From Deltaproteobacteria bacterium (GTDB lineage: Bacteria > Desulfobacterota > GWC2-55-46), in assembly GCA_020846435.1 (NCBI GenBank), contig JADLDY010000004.1, positions 1-64,000 on the forward strand: a stretch of 64,000 nucleotides of DNA, written 5' to 3'. The first letter of the stretch is position 1. Every line of letters starts with the position of its first letter. This document shows positions 53,143 through 62,761 of this stretch, in pieces. The notes below the pieces were generated by a model. It was not told the origin of the DNA and did no database searches. It saw only the letters and a program-made list of their open reading frames with translations. The position numbers were made by a program, and so were the translations under genes.

Positions 53143-54030
53143 TTACGCGTAAGCGTGGAGGCCCGGGAGAACGAAGCTGACGCCCCAGTACAGGAATATG
53201 ACCGCGAGGAAGCCCGCTATTGAGATATAAGCGGCCCTCTTGCCCCTCCAGCCCCTCGTGACCCTGGCGTGCAGATAAGCGGCGTATATGAACCATGTGA
53301 TAAGGGACCAGGTCTCCTTGGGGTCCCAGCTCCAGTAGGTGCCCCAGGCGTAGTTGGCCCAGACGGCTCCGGAGACTATGCCGACGCCGAGGAACGGGAA
53401 GCCCCAGGCTATCGCCCTGTAGCTCATCTCGTCTAAAACCCTCGACGGCGGGAAAGCGCTGACAAGAGCGCCACCAGAGCCCTTTTCCTCGGACCTCTCC
53501 TTTATGAGGTAGAGTATGCTGAGGCCGAAGGCGATGGCAAAGCCCGCGTAGCCTATGAAAGTCGTGAAGACGTGGAAGTCGAGCCAGCCTATCGCGTACT
53601 TCTCAAGGCCCCAGGTCGACAAAAGGTCGGTCATCCAGTGCCACTTGCTCTGGAGGGCCGGGTTCAAAGGCTCGACGCTCTTGAATTTGTACGGCAGAAG
53701 GGAGGCCGAGAGCATGCCAAGGCTTTCAATGGCCATGACGACCATGCCTATGACCTTGAACTTGTACTTGTACTCCATGAAGAGGTAGGCGACGTTGGTA
53801 GCCCAGATGAAGAGCATCATGGACTCCCACAGGTTGGAGAACGGAGCGTGCCCGGATTCCCCTGTCCTGCTTATGAGTATCATCGATGTGGAGGCAAGGG
53901 CGATGAAGGCCATGGCCGTGGCTGTCTGCCCGAGCCACTTCTTCTTGAACACCCAGTAGCCCAGGTAGAGCGCCGTTGTCAGAATGTAGAAGACGAATGA
54001 GAATGTGAAGAAAACAAGAGACAGTATCAT
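53143..54030 (-). CDS. ccsA: System II cytochrome c haem lyase subunit CcsA/ResC
   Basis: The 295-residue protein has about eight membrane helices and the haem-handling WWD-type motif WGTYWSWDPKETWSLITW (about 230-247). External histidines flank it in adjacent loops. With ResB it exports haem and attaches it to apocytochromes. It lies 15 bases after resB. The name CcsB is also used for this protein in some systems. Confidence 0.95.
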   Translation of the reverse strand: MILSLVFFTFSFVFYILTTALYLGYWVFKKKWLGQTATAMAFIALASTSMILISRTGESGHAPFSNLWESMMLFIWATNVAYLFMEYKYKFKVIGMVVMAIESLGMLSASLLPYKFKSVEPLNPALQSKWHWMTDLLSTWGLEKYAIGWLDFHVFTTFIGYAGFAIAFGLSILYLIKERSEEKGSGGALVSAFPPSRVLDEMSYRAIAWGFPFLGVGIVSGAVWANYAWGTYWSWDPKETWSLITWFIYAAYLHARVTRGWRGKRAAYISIAGFLAVIFLYWGVSFVLPGLHAYA

Positions 54031-54045
54031 TTCTTCCCCCTGGGA

Positions 54046-55461
54046 TTAATCCGAAGTAAGCGACTCGGTAATGTCCTTGAGCTCTTTTTCCAAGACCAAG
54101 GTGTTCTTGTTTATGGTGCCGCCTATCTTGACCTCGGTCGACTTGCCGGTCTCTCTAACGTGCACCCAGAGCCTCCTGTGGTACACGAAAAAGGCGAGTA
54201 TGAAGCCGAAGCCCATGACAGAGGTGCCGAGCCAGACTATGTTGGTTCCGGGGTCCTTGTTGACCGATATGCCGGAGTACATGACTGGCACGTACCCGGT
54301 GAAAACCAGGTCTTCGTCGGCATTGGGGATCGCCGGGAAGATGCCCGGATATTTGACGAAGAGCCAGGGGGTCGCGATCTCCTTGTCGCCGTCGAACACT
54401 TCGACCCTTATGGCCGGGTTTACGGCTTCGGCTGACTTGGAGAAGACCTGGTTCGTTGCCTCGTCGTAAGCGAAGTCCCCTGTGTAGCCCGCGAGCTTTA
54501 CAGAGTACCTGGTGCCGGGCACCTTGGCCGTCTCGCCCCACTTCACCGTGATGGTCTCGCCGAGGGCTTCCTTGCCCTTATGCTTGACCGCTATCTGGGC
54601 CTCCTGGATCCTGTTCCATGACTGCCCGTAGCTCGACTGGTAGAACTTTATACCCTTGTAATCCAGCGGCTCGTTGACCCATATCTGCTTTTCCAGCACG
54701 TCCTTGCCGTCCTCCAGGACTGTCAGGGTCGACTTGTACTGCTTGACCTGGCCGGAGTCGTAGTACTCTATCCAGAACTTGTCGAGGCGGAGCTTGAACT
54801 CGGCCTGAGGGACGCTCACAGTGCCGCCCACGTTCACCGCGAAAAAGTCCTTGTAACCGGCGTAGCTGCCGACTATCGCTCCCGCGAGAATAAGAAGGAG
54901 GCTTATGTGCGTGAAGTCGGAGCCGAGCCTTCCCACCCTGCCCTTCCACGCGTAGAAATAATAATCGCCCTTAGTCCCTGACTCTGAGACGCCGTACTTC
55001 TTCTTTTTCAGGACCTTGAGGAGCCTGTCGCGGACCGCGTCAGATCCGGCGTTGAGGCTGACCGTCTCGCGGTGCGAGAACCTGTCTATTATCGCCGGGT
55101 CGAACTTCTCCGGGATATGCACAAGAAGCGACTTCCACTTGGGGGGAAACCTCTCAAAAGTGCAGACTATGATGTTGAGGGCAAGGGCCGCGAGAAACGC
55201 CAGGAACCACCACGCGTGGTACATGTCGTTGAGGCGGGTGTACATTATCCAGCTCGTCCACTTCTCGCCGTACTGCGTCAGGTACTGCTCGACAGGGGCG
55301 TTCTGCTCGACCACTGTCCCGAATATCGAGAGCACTGCCAGAGAGATGAGGACGAAGAGCGTGAGCTTGAGTGAGTTGAAGAAATACCATATCTTGGACC
55401 CAATGGTCCTTAACCAGCCCTCTTCCCTGCCGGTCTTAGCATCCTTTGCTTTATCGGGCAT
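54046..55461 (-). CDS. resB: Cytochrome c biogenesis protein ResB/Ccs1
   Basis: The 471-residue protein has an N-terminal set of membrane helices (FFNSLKLTLFVLISLAVLSI near 28-47, another near 80), a large periplasmic part and a final membrane helix (about 410-430). The motif FGTVVEQNAPVEQYLTQYG is typical. It pairs with CcsA encoded directly downstream. Confidence 0.95.
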   Translation of the reverse strand: MPDKAKDAKTGREEGWLRTIGSKIWYFFNSLKLTLFVLISLAVLSIFGTVVEQNAPVEQYLTQYGEKWTSWIMYTRLNDMYHAWWFLAFLAALALNIIVCTFERFPPKWKSLLVHIPEKFDPAIIDRFSHRETVSLNAGSDAVRDRLLKVLKKKKYGVSESGTKGDYYFYAWKGRVGRLGSDFTHISLLLILAGAIVGSYAGYKDFFAVNVGGTVSVPQAEFKLRLDKFWIEYYDSGQVKQYKSTLTVLEDGKDVLEKQIWVNEPLDYKGIKFYQSSYGQSWNRIQEAQIAVKHKGKEALGETITVKWGETAKVPGTRYSVKLAGYTGDFAYDEATNQVFSKSAEAVNPAIRVEVFDGDKEIATPWLFVKYPGIFPAIPNADEDLVFTGYVPVMYSGISVNKDPGTNIVWLGTSVMGFGFILAFFVYHRRLWVHVRETGKSTEVKIGGTINKNTLVLEKELKDITESLTSD

Positions 55462-55470
55462 CTCGCTATC

Positions 55471-56019
55471 CTACTTTTTATTTACAAGCGTAAGGTACTC
55501 GGCGGCCGCCTTGCCGATCTGGCTCTCGGGGTTCAGGGCGTTGGCCTTCTCCCAGGCCACCTTCGCGCCCTCGATGTCACCCATGCCGTAGGCGAGGATG
55601 AAGCCCTTGGTAAGCCATATCCTCTGATGGTAAGGGTTCTTCTTTATGCCTTCGTCGAGGTACTTTACGGCCTCGGCCGAGTTGCCGAGGTAGTGGAGCG
55701 AGAGTCCGAGGTCATTGTACAGGTCCGCCTCTCCCGGCTTGACCTCAAGGACCTTCTTGTAATACTTGACCGACTCATTGAACTGCTTGGAATCAAAGTA
55801 GGCGTCCCCGAGCCTCCAGAGTACCTCCGGGTTCTTCGGGTCCTGCTTGTACCTCGCCTCGAGGTCGGCGATGAGAGTCGCGTTCTGCTGCATACCCTGG
55901 GCCGGCTGCGCCTGCTGGGTCGCCGGTTGCGTCTCTTCTTTTTTAGAGCAGCCTCCAATTGCCAGCATGGCCGAAAGGCCGAGCGCTGCCACGGCGGTTA
56001 TCAAGGTCTTCTTCTGCAA
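55471..56019 (-). CDS. TPR lipoprotein of the cytochrome c maturation operon
   Basis: The 182-residue protein has a lipoprotein signal (lipobox IGGC, Cys24), a Gln/Pro-rich spacer and three TPR units (about 50-165; VLWRLGDAYFDSKQFNESVK, then LYNDLGLSLHYLGNSAEAVK). It lies 9 bases before resB. TPR proteins such as NrfG and CcmI hold apocytochromes during haem attachment, and a similar role is plausible here. Confidence 0.85.
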   Translation of the reverse strand: MQKKTLITAVAALGLSAMLAIGGCSKKEETQPATQQAQPAQGMQQNATLIADLEARYKQDPKNPEVLWRLGDAYFDSKQFNESVKYYKKVLEVKPGEADLYNDLGLSLHYLGNSAEAVKYLDEGIKKNPYHQRIWLTKGFILAYGMGDIEGAKVAWEKANALNPESQIGKAAAEYLTLVNKK

Positions 56020-56032
56020 GTTGCCTCCTTAT

Positions 56033-56458
56033 TCAGTGACTGAGGTGGGCGAAGCGTTCGTCAATCGCCTTCCTTATTGCATCCATGCTCTCGCCCTTCT
56101 TGTGGAGCTCGTAGGCCATGAGGGCTTCGTTAATACATATGTCGCAGTTGAGCGCGTGCTCGTCAACGTAACAGCTCAGGAGGCTCTTGTGGCCGGAGTG
56201 CTTCTCGCAGTCGCAATAACAATACAGGCTGTCCAGTACTTCGGGTATCTCCGGGGCGGCCTGATAAGCCCTGGCCGTGTCCCCGGTGAAGCTCGACGGG
56301 GAAAGGGTCTGCCTCGTCTCCCCTCCCTTGAAGCCCTTCAAGGCAGAGGCCTTCGGCGCTTCGCTTGACTGGCAGGACGAAAGCGCTATGAGCGTTACAG
56401 CCGCGAAAAGAACGGCGATGTTTCTGGTTCTGATTGAGAGCATGCGGTTTAAAGACAT
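56033..56458 (-). CDS. Cysteine-rich lipoprotein resembling the PCYCGC family
   Basis: The 141-residue protein has a lipoprotein signal (ALSSC, Cys29) and a compact domain with C80-Y-C-D-C84, H87, H90, C96, H101, C105 and C108, followed by a helix. The CxCxC core resembles the PCYCGC motif family of unknown function, with Leu-Tyr in place of the first Pro. Six cysteines with histidines suggest a metal site or disulfide substrate. It is the first gene of the System II operon, behind its own promoter. Confidence 0.78.
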   Translation of the reverse strand: MSLNRMLSIRTRNIAVLFAAVTLIALSSCQSSEAPKASALKGFKGGETRQTLSPSSFTGDTARAYQAAPEIPEVLDSLYCYCDCEKHSGHKSLLSCYVDEHALNCDICINEALMAYELHKKGESMDAIRKAIDERFAHLSH

Positions 56459-56634: not shown

Positions 56635-57474
56635 TTATTTGCGGATTGAGGCGAAGTAATTCGAACGCGTGACGCTCTCTTCGATGCCGTATAGGATGCA
56701 CTTGGTCGGGCACCTCTTTATCGACTCGTCGTTCTGCGGGGCTACATCGTGGTTTATGACGGCCAGGTTGTCCTTGAGGGCTATGCCGCCCGGGGCTGAG
56801 CAGTCCTTGACGCACAGACCGCAGGCTATGCAGGCGACCTTGCAGACCTTCTTGGCGTAGGCGCCCTTGTCCCTGGACCTGCAGTAGACGAAGAGCTTGT
56901 GGTCTTCAGGGTGCATCTCGATTATGTTCCTGGGGCAGGCCCTGGCGCACGCTCCGCAGCCAACGCATTTGTCATAGAACACGACAGGCAGTCCGTTTTC
57001 GTTCATGGCCATAGCGTCGAACTTACAGGCGTCAACGCATTCGCCGAGCCCGAGACAGCCGTACGAGCAGGACTTGTCCGCGCCCGTGAGGGTCTCGGCC
57101 GTGCAGGTCATCTCGCCCCTGTAGGTCGCCCTTCTCTCGGCCTCGTTATTGCCGCCCTTGCAAAGGACCACGGCGATATTCCTTTTCATCGACCCGGCGT
57201 CGACGCCCATGATCTCGGCCACAGCCTTAGAAGTCTCGCTGCCGCCAGCCACGCAGGCGTTGGGCAGAGCGTTGCCCTTCATCAGTGCCTCGGCGAACAC
57301 CCTGCACCCGGCAAAGCCGCACCCGCCGCAGTTAGAGCCCGGAAGAGCGCCGGTGAGCGCCTCAACCATCGGGTCTTCCTCGACCTTCATCTTCTTGTCG
57401 GCGAAGGCGAGAAAACCTGCGAGGACCGCGCCTATGGCGCCCATGCTTAAAGCGGATATCAGTATCATTCCCAT
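56635..57474 (-). CDS. rnfB: Rnf complex ferredoxin-type subunit RnfB
   Basis: The 279-residue protein has an N-terminal membrane helix, a 4Fe-4S domain with GSNCGGCGFAGCRVFAEAL (about 48-66) and two ferredoxin clusters (CVGCGACARACPRNI and CIACGLCVKDCS). It receives electrons from ferredoxin for transfer through RnfC/D/G to NAD. It is last in rnfCDGEAB and is followed by a strong terminator. Confidence 0.97.
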   Translation of the reverse strand: MGMILISALSMGAIGAVLAGFLAFADKKMKVEEDPMVEALTGALPGSNCGGCGFAGCRVFAEALMKGNALPNACVAGGSETSKAVAEIMGVDAGSMKRNIAVVLCKGGNNEAERRATYRGEMTCTAETLTGADKSCSYGCLGLGECVDACKFDAMAMNENGLPVVFYDKCVGCGACARACPRNIIEMHPEDHKLFVYCRSRDKGAYAKKVCKVACIACGLCVKDCSAPGGIALKDNLAVINHDVAPQNDESIKRCPTKCILYGIEESVTRSNYFASIRK

Positions 57475-57478
57475 ATCA

Positions 57479-58057
57479 TCAACCCCTGATGAGCCCGGCG
57501 AAGCCCATAAACGCGAGTGCCATCATGCCGGCTATTATGAGGGTTATGGATATACCCTGAAAGTGCTTCGGGATGTCGGCGAACTCGAGCTCTTCCCTTA
57601 TGCCAGACATCATGACAATGGCAAGGGTGAAGCCGACGCCTGTTGCGAAGCCGAAGACGATCGACTCAAGAAAGCTGTACTCCCTCATGACCATGAAGAG
57701 CGCGAGCCCGAGGACGGCGCAGTTGGTGGTTATGAGCGGAAGGAATATGCCCAATGCCCTGTATAGCGAGGGGCTGGCCTTTCTTATGTACATCTCGACG
57801 AACTGCACGAGCGCGGCGATGATTATGATGAACGCGACATACTGCAGGAACGGCACATTGAACTTCACGAGCACATAATTGTATATGGGCCAGGTAGCTG
57901 CCGCCGTAAGGGTCATGACAAAGGTCGTCGCGAACCCCATGTTCAGGGCGTTCTCGGTCTTGTTGGAGACGCCCACGAACGGGCAGATGCCCAGGAAGTA
58001 GGTCAGGACGAAGTTGTTTATCAATGAGGCTGATATGAATATGAGTATGAGTTCCAT
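57479..58057 (-). CDS. rnfA: Rnf complex membrane subunit RnfA
   Basis: The 192-residue protein has six membrane helices and begins MELILIFISASLINNFVLTY, with FLGICPFVGVSNKTENALNM. The conserved membrane Cys (GICPF) helps carry an Fe-S cluster between RnfA and RnfE. It lies 4 bases before rnfB. Confidence 0.97.
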   Translation of the reverse strand: MELILIFISASLINNFVLTYFLGICPFVGVSNKTENALNMGFATTFVMTLTAAATWPIYNYVLVKFNVPFLQYVAFIIIIAALVQFVEMYIRKASPSLYRALGIFLPLITTNCAVLGLALFMVMREYSFLESIVFGFATGVGFTLAIVMMSGIREELEFADIPKHFQGISITLIIAGMMALAFMGFAGLIRG

Positions 58058-58072
58058 TACCTTAACCGTCCT

Positions 58073-58702
58073 TTAGCGGGACATAGCGGCTGAGGCCGCC
58101 TTTTCAGCCTTTCTGCTGGATATCCAGTTCACAAGGGCCACCAGGCCGCCGAAGACGAGGAACGCGCCTGCCGGGAGTATCATGACTATCCAGGGCTCGA
58201 ACCACTCTCCGAGGAGCTTTACGCCGAATATGCTACCGAAACCGAGGACTTCCCTTATGGTGCCCATGATGGTAAGGCTGATTATGAAGCCAATGCCGAT
58301 GCCCAGCGTGTCAGCCGCTGTCGGGAGTATGGAGTTCTTCTGGGCGAACGCCTCGGCCCTGCCGAGTATTATGCAGTTGACGACAATAAGCGGTATGTAC
58401 GGCCCGAGGGACTTGGATATGTCCGGGAAAACCGCCGCGAGAAACAGATCAGCCACGGTAACGAGGGTCGCGATTATGACGACATAGGCCGGTATCCTCA
58501 CCTGCGCGGAGATCGTCTTCCTCACCAGGGATATCAGTATGTTCGATGTGAAAAGGACGAATATGGTAGCAAGCCCCATGGCAAGGCCGTTGACGGCCGA
58601 GTTAGTCACAGCCAGCGTCGGGCAAAGGCCGAGCACGAGCCTGAAAGGAGGCAGCTCCTGCCAGAGCCCTTTCTTGAATTCGTATCCGAGACTATTTGCC
58701 AT
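58073..58702 (-). CDS. rnfE: Rnf complex membrane subunit RnfE
   Basis: The 209-residue homologue of RnfA begins MANSLGYEFKKGLWQELPPF, with LVLGLCPTLAVTNSAVNGLA. The Cys in LGLCP is the partner of that in RnfA. Its start overlaps the end of rnfG by 11 bases. Confidence 0.97.
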   Translation of the reverse strand: MANSLGYEFKKGLWQELPPFRLVLGLCPTLAVTNSAVNGLAMGLATIFVLFTSNILISLVRKTISAQVRIPAYVVIIATLVTVADLFLAAVFPDISKSLGPYIPLIVVNCIILGRAEAFAQKNSILPTAADTLGIGIGFIISLTIMGTIREVLGFGSIFGVKLLGEWFEPWIVMILPAGAFLVFGGLVALVNWISSRKAEKAASAAMSR

Positions 58703-59321
58703 TGCCAGCCTCCTTGGGGGCTGCTTGAGGCGCGGCCTCAGCCCTGGTCATCTCTTCTTGCGGGAAGTTGGCAACGACCTTCTCGACGGCCCTGTTTATG
58801 TTCTTTACGACCGCGTCAGAGGATATCGTCGCGCCGGTTATGGCCTGTATCTGGTTGGGCTTCTCTGGCTTCCTGTACTTTATGTACTCGACCTTGGGCT
58901 TCACTTCGAGGCCCTTGAACTGGTCTTTGAACGCCTCTTCCCTTATCCTGTCGCCGAGGCCGGGAGTCTCGAGCTGCTCTAAAACCTCTATTGCCCTGAG
59001 CTTAAGATAATTGGTCTCAAGGCCCACCATGAGGCCGATGTTGCCCTGGAACCCGCCTCCGTCGGCCTTGAAAGCGACGCCCACGGGCGCTCCGTTCTCG
59101 TCGATGCCCTTGTAGACGATGAGCTTTTCCTGGCCGACCGTCTTCTCAAGGACCTTGAAGTCCTTCGCGCCGGGAAGAACGACGAAGATGGCCTCCTTGA
59201 GCTCCCTTTCCTTGTTGGCCTTTATCATCGGGTCAGCGACGCCGAACACTCCGGACAATATTATCCCGGAGAGCGCGCCGATGACTATGAGGTTGAGAAA
59301 CATTTTAACGATATTGTTCAA
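58692..59321 (-). CDS. rnfG: Rnf complex FMN-binding subunit RnfG
   Basis: A TTG at 59321 with GGAGG six bases before it fits best and gives about 209 residues. An ATG at 59339 would place that Shine-Dalgarno inside the coding region. One N-terminal membrane helix and an FMN-binding domain follow. The flavin attachment segment reads QAITGATISSDAV: the acceptor Thr in TGAT is present, but the usual Asp three residues before it is Gln. FMN is normally attached by ApbE, whose gene is not in the window. Confidence 0.92.
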   Translation of the reverse strand: MNNIVKMFLNLIVIGALSGIILSGVFGVADPMIKANKERELKEAIFVVLPGAKDFKVLEKTVGQEKLIVYKGIDENGAPVGVAFKADGGGFQGNIGLMVGLETNYLKLRAIEVLEQLETPGLGDRIREEAFKDQFKGLEVKPKVEYIKYRKPEKPNQIQAITGATISSDAVVKNINRAVEKVVANFPQEEMTRAEAAPQAAPKEAGNGK

Positions 59322-59358
59322 GCAATTCCTCCGGGGCATCCGCGCCCCACGGATACTT

Positions 59359-60372
59359 TTATCCCTTTTGCGCCTTGACTTCGCCGAAGACTTTTGGCCT
59401 CGTGTGCTTGTTAAGAAGCGGCACAAAGGCGTTCATGAACAAAATGGAGTACATGACGCCCTCGGGAAGGCCGCCGAAGAGCCTTATGACGACGGCAAGT
59501 ATGCCAGCGACTATTACGAATATCCACTGCCCGAGCGAAGTCACCGGAGAGGTGACCATGTCGGTTACCATGAACCACGCGCCAAGCATAGCCCCTCCGG
59601 CGAAGAGGTGAAAGAGCGGGCTGGGGTACTTGGCTGGGTTTACATACCAGAAAATAGCCGAGAAGACCGCTATGGTGCCTAAATATCCGAGCGGAAGCTT
59701 CCAGTTGATGTAGCCCTTGTAGCGAAGGTACAGGCCGCCCAGGATGATGGCTATCGCCGAGGTCTCGCCTAAAGAGCCGGCGGTGTTGCCGATGAACATG
59801 TCCATGATGGGTACATCGAACTTGCCCTCGAACTTGGCCATGACCAGCGGGGTCGCGGCGGTAACCGCGTCAATCGCCTTTTCCATCGTGCGGGGCCAGA
59901 CCCAGGTCGTCGTAAGCACCGGGTAGGTCGCCATGAGAAACGCCCTTCCGAGAAGAGCCGGGTTGAATATGTTGTAGCCGAGCCCGCCGAAAAGCTGCTT
60001 GCCTACGCCTATCGCGAATACCGAGCCGAGAATCGCGCCGAATATCGGGAACCCGGCAGGCAAAGTCATGGCCAGGAGCATGCCGGTGATGATCGCGCTC
60101 CCGTCGTGTATCTTTATGGGTTGTTTTCTTATCTTCTGGAAGGCGTATTCGGTCGCGAGACAGGCTACGACGCAGACGATGATAAGAAGAAGGGCGCGCC
60201 AGCCGAAGAAATAGACGCTCGCGGCGGTTGCCGGCAGGAGCGCCGTGACCACATTGTGCATTATCTTCGGCACGCTCTCGGTATTGAGGAAGTGCGGCGA
60301 AGAAGAAACTATGAGCCTTGTTGCCGCCTGTGAAGGCTGCTCAGCGTTCGGATTTATCTCTTTTGCGTCCAA
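59359..60372 (-). CDS. rnfD: Rnf complex membrane flavoprotein subunit RnfD
   Basis: No ATG lies before the conserved N-terminus (RLIVSSSPHFLNTESVPKIM). A TTG at 60372, 22 bases after the rnfC stop with AGAGG just upstream, gives about 337 residues. A further TTG at 60447 would overlap rnfC. The protein has about nine membrane helices, and the flavinylation site is DAVTAATPL, a near match to Dxx(S/T)GAT. It carries covalently bound FMN and takes part in ion translocation. Confidence 0.93.
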   Translation of the reverse strand: MDAKEINPNAEQPSQAATRLIVSSSPHFLNTESVPKIMHNVVTALLPATAASVYFFGWRALLLIIVCVVACLATEYAFQKIRKQPIKIHDGSAIITGMLLAMTLPAGFPIFGAILGSVFAIGVGKQLFGGLGYNIFNPALLGRAFLMATYPVLTTTWVWPRTMEKAIDAVTAATPLVMAKFEGKFDVPIMDMFIGNTAGSLGETSAIAIILGGLYLRYKGYINWKLPLGYLGTIAVFSAIFWYVNPAKYPSPLFHLFAGGAMLGAWFMVTDMVTSPVTSLGQWIFVIVAGILAVVIRLFGGLPEGVMYSILFMNAFVPLLNKHTRPKVFGEVKAQKG

Positions 60373-60394
60373 GGTCCTCTGGTCCGTTATCCTG

Positions 60395-61726
60395 TTATTT
60401 TGCGGCAGCGGCCTTTTGGGCTTCCTGACGAACTTTAAGCTTTCCAAGCCTTATCCACTGAAGCAACGGCCTCTTTGACGGGCATACATATGAACAGCAG
60501 CCGCACTCTATGCAGGAGAGCCCGTCCCAGTCCTTGAACTCACCTGTCCTGAAAGCCTTGCCAAAGTCCCCGAGCTTATACGGCATGAGCGCCATCGGGC
60601 AGACAGAGACGCAGCTCGCGCACCTTATGCAGGCCTCGTACACCGATGACTTTATAACAGAAGCGGCGATGACCGTTATGCCGGATGTGCCTTTTATGAC
60701 CGGGACCGAAAGGGTCGGCTGGGCGATACCCATCATCGGGCCGCCGTTCAAAACTTCTACTTCGCCGCCCTCGACAAGGCCGCCGCACTGAGAGAGAACC
60801 TCTTCGAAGCTCGTGCCGACCCTCACTTTAAGGTTCCTCGGCTCTTTTACGCCGTTGCCGCTTACCGTGACTATCCTCTCGATGAGGGGCTTGCCCCAGT
60901 TGACAGCTTCAAATATGGCGGCCGCAGTGCCGACATTGTTTACGACTACGCCTACATCAAGGGGGAGCTTGCCGACAGGCACCTTCTTGCCGGTTGCCGC
61001 GACTATAAGCATCTTCTCCGCGCCTTGCGGGTACTTGGCTTCGAGTATTATTATCTGTATGTCAGTGGATGAGCCTATGGCCTTTCTCAAGGCCTCTATC
61101 GCGTCAGGCTTGTTCTCTTCAATGCCGACAAAGCCTTTGGGAGCGGCGAGCGTCTTCATAAGGGCTCTGAGGCCCCAGACGACCTTTTCAGGCTCTTCAA
61201 GCATTATGCGGTGGTCTGCCGTGAGGTATGGCTCGCACTCGCAGCCGTTCAATATGACGGCCTCTATTGCCTTGCCCTTAGGAGGGGCAAGCTTTACTGA
61301 AGTCGGGAACGCGGCCCCGCCCATGCCGACAATTCCGGCTTCGCGTATGGAATCTTTGAGCGCGTCGACGGAGATGGAGGAGAGGTCTTTTGCTGGCCCG
61401 CCCCACTCCTTAGCGGTCCCGTCGCCCTCGATGATGATCGAAAGCGACCTGAAGCCGCCCGGGTGCTGGGAGAGCTCTATGTCTTTTACTTTTCCTGAGA
61501 TCGAAGAATGGACTGGAGCCGAGACAAAGGCCTTTACGTCGCCTATCTTCTGGCCTTCGGTGACGAGGTCGCCCTTTTTGACGAGGGGCTCGCATGGCGC
61601 GCCGGCATGCTGCTGCAGCGGGATGGTAACGGTCTTTGGAAGCGCCGCCGCCTCTACCCGCTTGCCTGCGGTGAGTTCTTTGTAGTATGAGGGGTGTACG
61701 CCCCTTGCGAAGGTCTTATGTCCCAT
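60395..61726 (-). CDS. rnfC: Rnf complex NADH-binding subunit RnfC
   Basis: From the ATG at 61726 the protein is 443 residues. An upstream TTG would add five. It has an N-terminal RnfC barrel (GVHPSYYKELTAGKRVE), the flavin/NADH domain with GMGGAAFPTSVKLAPPKG and LNGCECEPYLTADHRIM, and two C-terminal 4Fe-4S motifs (CIRCASCVSVCP and CIECGCCSYVCPSKRPLL). It exchanges electrons with NAD. It heads the rnf operon, and its leader carries a ZTP-type riboswitch (61807-61916). Confidence 0.97.
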   Translation of the reverse strand: MGHKTFARGVHPSYYKELTAGKRVEAAALPKTVTIPLQQHAGAPCEPLVKKGDLVTEGQKIGDVKAFVSAPVHSSISGKVKDIELSQHPGGFRSLSIIIEGDGTAKEWGGPAKDLSSISVDALKDSIREAGIVGMGGAAFPTSVKLAPPKGKAIEAVILNGCECEPYLTADHRIMLEEPEKVVWGLRALMKTLAAPKGFVGIEENKPDAIEALRKAIGSSTDIQIIILEAKYPQGAEKMLIVAATGKKVPVGKLPLDVGVVVNNVGTAAAIFEAVNWGKPLIERIVTVSGNGVKEPRNLKVRVGTSFEEVLSQCGGLVEGGEVEVLNGGPMMGIAQPTLSVPVIKGTSGITVIAASVIKSSVYEACIRCASCVSVCPMALMPYKLGDFGKAFRTGEFKDWDGLSCIECGCCSYVCPSKRPLLQWIRLGKLKVRQEAQKAAAAK

Positions 61727-61806
61727 GTCCCTAAGAGGCAAGTGATACTACCTTTGCGCCCCCCGTGTCAAGCATGATTTTGGACAACAAAAAACCGTCA
61801 TGGATA

Positions 61807-61916
61807 AAGAAAAAACAGCTTGGTCAAGCTGCGATTCTTTGCCCAGACGGTCGGCTACTGCTCTTATATTCCCGCTCCCCGGTGGTAACCACCTTGATTC
61901 CGTCAGTAACGGGAAA
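61807..61916 (-). ncRNA. ZTP (pfl-motif) riboswitch with intrinsic terminator upstream of rnfC
   Basis: On the minus strand P1 pairs TTCCCG (61910-61915) with CGGGAA (61869-61874). P2 is GGTGG-TTA-CCACC (61881-61893), followed by GGGGAGC. The conserved 3' element is CCGTCTGGGCA (61840-61850). The pseudoknot pairs GACGG in the P1-P2 junction with CCGTC. The pfl consensus has GGCGG/CCGCC there, so the pair has changed on both sides. A terminator (CAGCTT-GACC-AAGCTG and TTTTTT, 61810-61831) follows 10 bases later. The next gene is rnfC, about 80 bases on. In the known class, ZTP binding prevents termination and turns the gene on. Confidence 0.85.
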
Positions 61917-61936
61917 TTCATTTAGCTTATGCAAGC

Positions 61937-61966
61937 ATATTAATTCAGGATGAGCGCGCTTGTCAA
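61937..61966 (-). promoter_or_regulatory. Sigma-70-type promoter for the riboswitch-rnf transcript
   Basis: The minus strand has TTGACA (61961-61966), 18 bases and TAATAT (61937-61942). The -35 box is exact and the -10 box matches 4 of 6. The predicted start near 61930 lies just ahead of the riboswitch P1. A second TTGACA-N18-TATCAC at 61742-61771 could start a short mRNA that bypasses the riboswitch. Confidence 0.6.
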
Positions 61967-62000
61967 GAGGAGAATCGTCACAGATATAAATTTTCATCAT

Positions 62001-62097
62001 GCTGACAGTCAGTCAGCTTCAGGCCGCTAAAAAAAACGCATCCGCAAGGCGTCGAGTGACGATGAGAACGACGCGGATGTGGAGCTTGAGGCGGCCT
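62001..62097 (-). terminator. Terminator with nested inverted repeats after the His-rich gene
   Basis: On the minus strand CATCCGC (62073-62079) pairs with GCGGATG (62039-62045), with an inner GCGTCG/CGACGC stem, and is followed by CG and eight T (62029-62036). Outside it AGGCCGC (62021-62027) and GCGGCCT (62091-62097) form another 7-bp pair, and GCTGAC-AGTCA-GTCAGC (62001-62017) is a separate perfect hairpin. The inner unit is a convincing terminator. The role of the outer repeats is unclear. Nothing else is seen between 61967 and 62000. Confidence 0.8.
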
Positions 62098-62098
62098 G

Positions 62099-62761
62099 CT
62101 AACCCTTGATAAAGAGCCACCTCACCACATATATGAGCGTCAGCGCAAGGCCGAAGCCCACAAGACCAACGCTCAGGCCGATCAACGGCACGACAGACGC
62201 CTCTGCCCCGGATATTCCCAGTGAGGTCGTCCTCATGCCCATGATTATCCACGAGAGTGGATAGAAAAGGCCGCCCGTGCCCAAGCAGGCCGCGGCTAAA
62301 GTCTTTGACCTCGGAGAGGCCGGAATGAGTGCCAGCAGGAGCGAGACGGCTATCGAGAGGATGCCGAGCCCCATGGCGTGAGCGTGAGCCTTGGCGAGCC
62401 GCCCGTGCGCGACGGCCATCACAGGGCTTGAGTGCGCGCCATGCGTAACTCCCTTGTCCTCATGCGCATACGTCGCTGAAGAGCCGGCAGTTTCAGGAGA
62501 AGCGGCGGGTTGGCCTGTTGCATGCCCTTCGTGTAAGTGGGCATGATTGTCATCGTGAGAGACCTGCTCGCCCTGCCCTGCCAGAGGGACAGTGACCGGC
62601 TTTTCCTCGACAGTTAAAACAGAGGCCTGGCTAAGCCTCGCGTGTATCTGTTCATGATTGGCTGTCAGGTAGACGACCCAGAAGAGCCCGAAGAGGAGGC
62701 CCAGGAGCCCGAAAAGAAGACCTATTCCAACGTGCCTGACTTCATCTTTGAGCCTCACCAT
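62099..62761 (-). CDS. His-rich multi-pass membrane protein of unknown function
   Basis: The 220-residue protein has a first membrane helix at about 11-33, a hydrophilic loop (about 34-120) with many His (SHDDNHAHLHEGHA and HGRLAKAHAHAMG), and four further membrane helices. His-rich loops often bind Zn, Ni or Cu. It does not match a transporter family I can name. It lies 3 bases after the HtrA-like protease gene ends and is closed by a strong terminator, so the two are probably co-expressed. Confidence 0.75.
   Translation of the reverse strand: MVRLKDEVRHVGIGLLFGLLGLLFGLFWVVYLTANHEQIHARLSQASVLTVEEKPVTVPLAGQGEQVSHDDNHAHLHEGHATGQPAASPETAGSSATYAHEDKGVTHGAHSSPVMAVAHGRLAKAHAHAMGLGILSIAVSLLLALIPASPRSKTLAAACLGTGGLFYPLSWIIMGMRTTSLGISGAEASVVPLIGLSVGLVGFGLALTLIYVVRWLFIKG

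Follow-up and report, generated by a model that had tools for sequence, protein, structure and literature searches.

ZTP has been put forward as the alarmone that signals a lack of 10-formyl-THF, and ZTP riboswitches have been linked to purine and folate genes. The locus described here raises the question of whether a riboswitch of this class also governs an operon encoding the Rnf electron-transport complex and, if so, to what extent. The window, i.e., the whole stretch of DNA that was analysed, comprises 64,000 nucleotides. All six Rnf subunits (RnfC, D, G, E, A, B) are encoded together in it, each scoring above its NCBIfam cut-off, which confirms as rnfCDGEAB the operon that the first-pass annotation had placed directly behind a riboswitch. 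An upstream TTG considered as the start codon of rnfC was replaced by the ATG at 61726 (MGHKTF, matching the homologues). At positions 53146-56458 on the minus strand, rnfB is followed by a gene encoding a CYCXC-family (seleno)protein, then by genes for a TPR protein and for the biogenesis of cytochrome c (a CcsB match and, by eye, a ResB-like protein); these genes possibly share the rnf transcript.

The aptamer and terminator of the rnfC leader

The genes and RNA elements considered in this section are the following:

60398-61726, minus strand: rnfC, start ATG at 61726 (NCBIfam TIGR01945, 523 bits)
56638-60447, minus strand: rnfD, rnfG, rnfE, rnfA and rnfB (NCBIfam TIGR01946, TIGR01947, TIGR01948, TIGR01943 and TIGR01944, each over cut-off)
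61834-61920, minus strand: ZTP (pfl) riboswitch aptamer (RF01750, full length; helix covariation in relatives)
61866-61917, minus strand: P1 helix, 61917-61909 with 61875-61866 (Rfam alignment; six two-sided pair changes in relatives)
61900-61904, minus strand: 5' pseudoknot strand GACGG in junction J1/2 (complementary to 61850-61846; invariant in a 28-sequence alignment)
61881-61893, minus strand: P2 hairpin GGTGG-TTA-CCACC (sequence, Rfam alignment)
61874-61880, minus strand: GGGGAGC core (sequence)
61841-61850, minus strand: CCGTCTGGGC element (sequence)
61841-61855, minus strand: P3 and its loop, containing the 3' pseudoknot strand CCGTC at 61850-61846 (Rfam alignment)
61789-61850, minus strand: intrinsic terminator serving as expression platform (RNAfold)

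When the window was searched with cmscan, the only Rfam match was to RF01750 (ZMP-ZTP) at 61920-61834 on the minus strand, with 61.0 bits against a gathering score of 39, an E-value of 2e-7 and the model covered end to end (1-86 of 86). The initial reading from the letters, a ZTP (pfl-motif) riboswitch on the minus strand with P1, a perfect P2 hairpin, GGGGAGC and CCGTCTGGGC, was thereby upheld by the covariance model to which it had pointed, and each of these elements is found in the sequence. P3 is formed by GCC at 61855-61853 pairing with GGC at 61843-61841. Relatives lend comparative support to P1-J1/2-P2, P3 and the pseudoknot: in the 28-sequence alignment, 93.9% of cells are paired, the pseudoknot pairs are always kept, and six pairs of P1 are altered on both sides. 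The covariation score for the whole structure was 0.228 compared to 0.139 in shuffles, and none of 500 shuffles attained 0.228. Score and conservation together rule out a chance match. Judged by its sequence, the element is a bona fide ZTP riboswitch and an ordinary member of a known RNA class, whose ligand would, by class membership, be ZMP/ZTP. Some aptamers of other genomes retain the core but carry long hairpin insertions, located either within J1/2 or P2 or in the linker that precedes P3 (G006:C28:16214-16369, G006:C88:24371-24518, G057:C140:4783-4902 and G020:C112:11021-11164).

The pseudoknot joins GACGG at 61904-61900 to CCGTC at 61850-61846. The first-pass annotation had described it as altered on both sides relative to the class consensus. 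It does depart from the Rfam consensus, yet not as a local change: GACGG/CCGUC occurs in nearly all aptamers of the bacterial class, and, being near-invariant there, the pseudoknot yields no local covariation. In the Fusobacterium ulcerans aptamer, residues A18 and U68 are located in the pseudoknot helix (PMC11419147), and they appear to pair at the position corresponding to the A-U variant of the class. A novel compensatory variant is ruled out by the class-wide near-invariance together with this apparent A-U pair.

Downstream of the aptamer, RNAfold predicted a long terminator spanning 61850-61795 followed by T6 at 61794-61789, with −24.9 kcal/mol and a z-score of −5.3 against shuffled letters. 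In this structure, CCGTC at 61850-61846 pairs with GACGG at 61799-61795, directly before the T6, around an internal hairpin at 61831-61816. It uses up CCGTC and most of TGGGC and is thus mutually exclusive with the pseudoknot and P3. Pairing between CCGUC and the strand next to the U-tract recurs in 89 of the 90 clade leaders in which that strand was located, location being by a pattern resembling the tested one, which left five leaders outside the 90. The initial reading had recognised a terminator with T6, correctly, and had confined it to 61831-61810; that segment is merely the apical or internal hairpin (−5.3 kcal/mol) of the longer 61850-61789 structure, which replaces it as the switching terminator. 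With its own T6, the apical hairpin might allow ligand-independent termination. A strand-displacement mechanism like the predicted one has been measured for the Clostridium beijerinckii (PMC10085676) and Thermosinus carboxydivorans (PMC7337938) RNAs.

Distribution of the element and the promoters around it

Within the bacterial class, rnfC is present in 57 of 63 genomes, and 30 of these 57 carry a ZTP element upstream of it, distributed over our genome's own family f1 (25/27), f7 (3/4) and f11 (2/7). The remaining rnfC leaders fetched in the class gave no aptamer even with filters off. Since 30 genomes share it, the ZTP-rnfC arrangement does not stem from a quirk of a single assembly. On the RnfC tree, five gains or losses of the element are needed, at least four of them backed by well-supported branches; a fair, though not proven, reading is one old gain in f1 and f7 followed by losses, plus f11. 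Genomes G006 and G010 have lost the element while keeping rnfC. In a genome collection screened with a class-trained model, ZTP preceded rnfC in five of 80 rnfC loci, all in near relatives, which rules out ZTP-rnfC in other phyla for these 80 loci.

Two promoter-like sites flank the aptamer-terminator unit:

61937-61966, minus strand: upstream promoter pA, −35 TTGACA at 61966-61961, 18-bp spacer, −10 TAATAT at 61942-61937 (10/12 consensus match)
61742-61771, minus strand: downstream promoter-like site pB, TTGACA at 61771-61766, 18-bp spacer, TATCAC at 61747-61742 (recurs in ZTP and non-ZTP rnfC leaders)

The promoter scan returned pA as the sole sigma-70-type site in 61600-62110, and a comparable, similarly placed site was found in all 26 scored rnfC-ZTP leaders (p ≤ 0.05 against shuffles). 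The site pB, situated between the terminator and rnfC, has an alternative −10 (TAGTAT at 61750-61745, spacer 15) and, in the window, scores under the threshold of that scan. Defined as TTGAC, a 16-18 nt spacer and a −10-like hexamer, pB-type sites nevertheless occur in 14 of 28 ZTP rnfC leaders (0.4 ± 0.6 in shuffles) and in 16 of 26 comparison rnfC leaders (1.0 ± 0.9 in shuffles), almost all of the latter lacking ZTP, with G061 as the one ZTP leader included. Likewise, leaders of monomeric isocitrate dehydrogenase (IDH) genes bear such a site in 18 of 27 cases with ZTP (shuffles 0.9) and in five of 12 initially classed as ZTP-less (shuffles 0.7), among which G061 was later found to have an element and G054 a decayed remnant.

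Taking these elements together, we consider it highly probable that the rnfCDGEAB leader holds a transcriptional ZTP ON switch to which pB adds switch-independent expression, the ON polarity being deduced from the class and the use of both promoters from the layout. Transcription would start at pA, about 10 nt ahead of the aptamer. Without ligand, the GACGG beside the U-tract would invade P3 and the CCGTC of the pseudoknot, the long terminator would form, and RNA polymerase would halt at about 61789. With ZMP or ZTP bound, the pseudoknot would withstand invasion and allow readthrough into rnf. Meanwhile, pB would supply rnf expression regardless of the switch, and the riboswitch would add Rnf as Z-nucleotides rise. 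Since pB-type sites are kept in rnfC leaders with and without ZTP, expression bypassing the switch is likely; pB apparently represents the ancestral rnf promoter, upstream of which a promoter-riboswitch-terminator unit was added, and the riboswitch is probably a booster of Rnf, not its gate. The riboswitch thus heads the operon, as first annotated, but the recurrent pB site after the terminator speaks against full control.

A less favoured reading, to which we assign a small though real chance, holds that the riboswitch is genuine and marginal for Rnf, with pB as the working promoter and the pA-aptamer-terminator unit yielding mostly short terminated RNA. The conservation of pB in both kinds of leader and the retention of rnfC in the two genomes that shed the element would fit this, whereas pA matches the consensus more closely and is preserved in every rnfC-ZTP leader scored, the strict test finds no pB in 14 of 28 ZTP leaders, and, unlike neutral debris, aptamer and terminator have stayed intact over branches with about 30% RnfC divergence. 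Far less plausible is an inverted outcome, in which ZMP-induced readthrough from pA would cross pB and cut its output by transcriptional interference, tuning Rnf down: the promoters do lie in tandem in the same direction with a terminator between them that would normally shield pB, yet the readthrough RNA itself bears rnfC with its ribosome site, and net repression would require pB to be much stronger than pA, the better match.

Compared to the known ZTP/ZMP riboswitches (RF01750; C. beijerinckii pfl, T. carboxydivorans, F. ulcerans), the highly probable ON switch of the rnfC leader is alike in aptamer architecture, core and pseudoknot, in its terminator invading P3 and the pseudoknot, and in its predicted polarity. 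It differs in the internal hairpin of the terminator, in the second promoter-like site after it, in the Rnf operon as target, and in the class-wide set of redox, TCA and serine targets. With tandem-promoter control in which one promoter is riboswitch-attenuated, it shares two promoters, one of them attenuated; here the arrangement was deduced from sequence, through a comparison of leaders that have the ZTP unit and leaders that lack it. The literature search brought up no mention of Rnf among ZTP riboswitch targets, the gene lists of the 2015 Molecular Cell ZTP paper and supplementary tables in general being beyond its reach, and no rnf riboswitch was reported in the papers examined on riboswitches and rnfC. 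The novelty therefore seems to lie in the target set of this bacterial class, not in the RNA itself.

Targets of ZTP elements in the class and the phylum

Our genome bears two ZTP elements, one before rnfC and the other before an aminotransferase-serA operon, and elements were found in 43 of 59 relatives. When the 97 elements of our genome and its relatives were sorted by first gene, 32 preceded monomeric NADP-isocitrate dehydrogenase, 29 rnfC, 20 the aminotransferase-serA pair and five a CPA2 antiporter. Minor targets included pntA-like, sucC and inorganic pyrophosphatase genes (two each) and single cases of kup and icd, while one element lay before a gene that matched no family and another was truncated by a contig end. 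G017 was counted under rnfC, recognised from its operon and confirmed by position, and one further rnfC case came from the class-wide search. The sorting gave no purH, fhs or glyA. The usual context of ZTP riboswitches consists of purine and one-carbon genes such as purH, fhs, pfl, glyA and folD (PMC2864571). This context is not encountered at rnfC, but it is a common association and does not define the RNA class. The serA gene (serine synthesis) at our genome's second element borders one-carbon metabolism.

Several individual loci were recorded. A decayed remnant of a ZTP element (GCAACTGACGGAATCAAGGTG..., 15 bits) lies downstream of a promoter-like site and before IDH in G054:C7 (L259, bases 118-32, minus strand), an apparent switch loss in progress. 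In G061:C15 (L260, bases 345-243, minus strand), a ZTP element before monomeric IDH scored 41.6 bits with the class model and had been missed when the class was searched with Rfam under strict filters. The monomeric isocitrate dehydrogenase gene of our own genome (G000:C8, L244) is truncated at residue 179, where the contig ends, and its leader lies outside the contig.

In the wider phylum, ZTP elements are rare (25 of 395 genomes, class included, under stricter filters), and their targets read, by eye, as fhs, glyA, an MFS transporter and the aminotransferase-serA pair. Outside the class, loci L193, L196, L197, L205, L195, L198 and L201-L203 have the element before glyA-, fhs- or aminotransferase-serA-like genes. 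As a ZTP target, the serine operon is therefore more widespread than the Rnf operon. A change of ligand by the aptamer in these bacteria would account for class targets devoid of purH, fhs and glyA. It is very improbable, however, given a conserved core that agrees with the Rfam consensus, a pseudoknot A-U variant that apparently also occurs in the F. ulcerans RNA, which binds ZMP (PMC11419147), GACGG/CCGTC aptamers preceding an fhs-like gene elsewhere in the phylum, in a different family (L195, L198), and the aminotransferase-serA target being common to ZTP elements outside the class (L201-L203).

Possible physiological meaning of the target set

The first-pass annotation had linked Rnf to THF-linked C1 reduction, a proposal that gained no support. 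Our genome contains Fhs and gave no CdhC match, and Fhs went undetected in eight ZTP-rnfC genomes (G008, G017, G025, G027, G029, G035, G038 and G042), of which G008 is a single contig; Wood-Ljungdahl or formate-THF chemistry was accordingly set aside, as unsupported, as the reason for placing Rnf under ZTP. PurH, the consumer of ZMP, is present in our genome. A rise in Z-nucleotides may instead call for serine as C1 donor, for NADPH with 2-oxoglutarate/glutamate, and for NADH/ferredoxin exchange; this would fit the combined targets, and we hold it loosely, at roughly one chance in three. Somewhat better placed, although still short of an even chance, is the proposal that, throughout this class, whose deltaproteobacterial lineages are uncultured, the ZTP regulon has left purine and folate genes for functions in redox and energy metabolism (Rnf, NADP-isocitrate dehydrogenase, transhydrogenase, serine synthesis and cation antiport), with ZMP/ZTP acting there as a general redox/energy alarmone through a complete promoter-riboswitch-terminator unit added upstream of existing promoters.

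If the conserved targets are indeed electron transport and NADPH supply, some bacteria would take the Z-nucleotide signal as information on their redox or energy state. In addition, the tandem arrangement suggests a way for a gene to acquire a riboswitch on its upstream side without giving up the promoter it already has.
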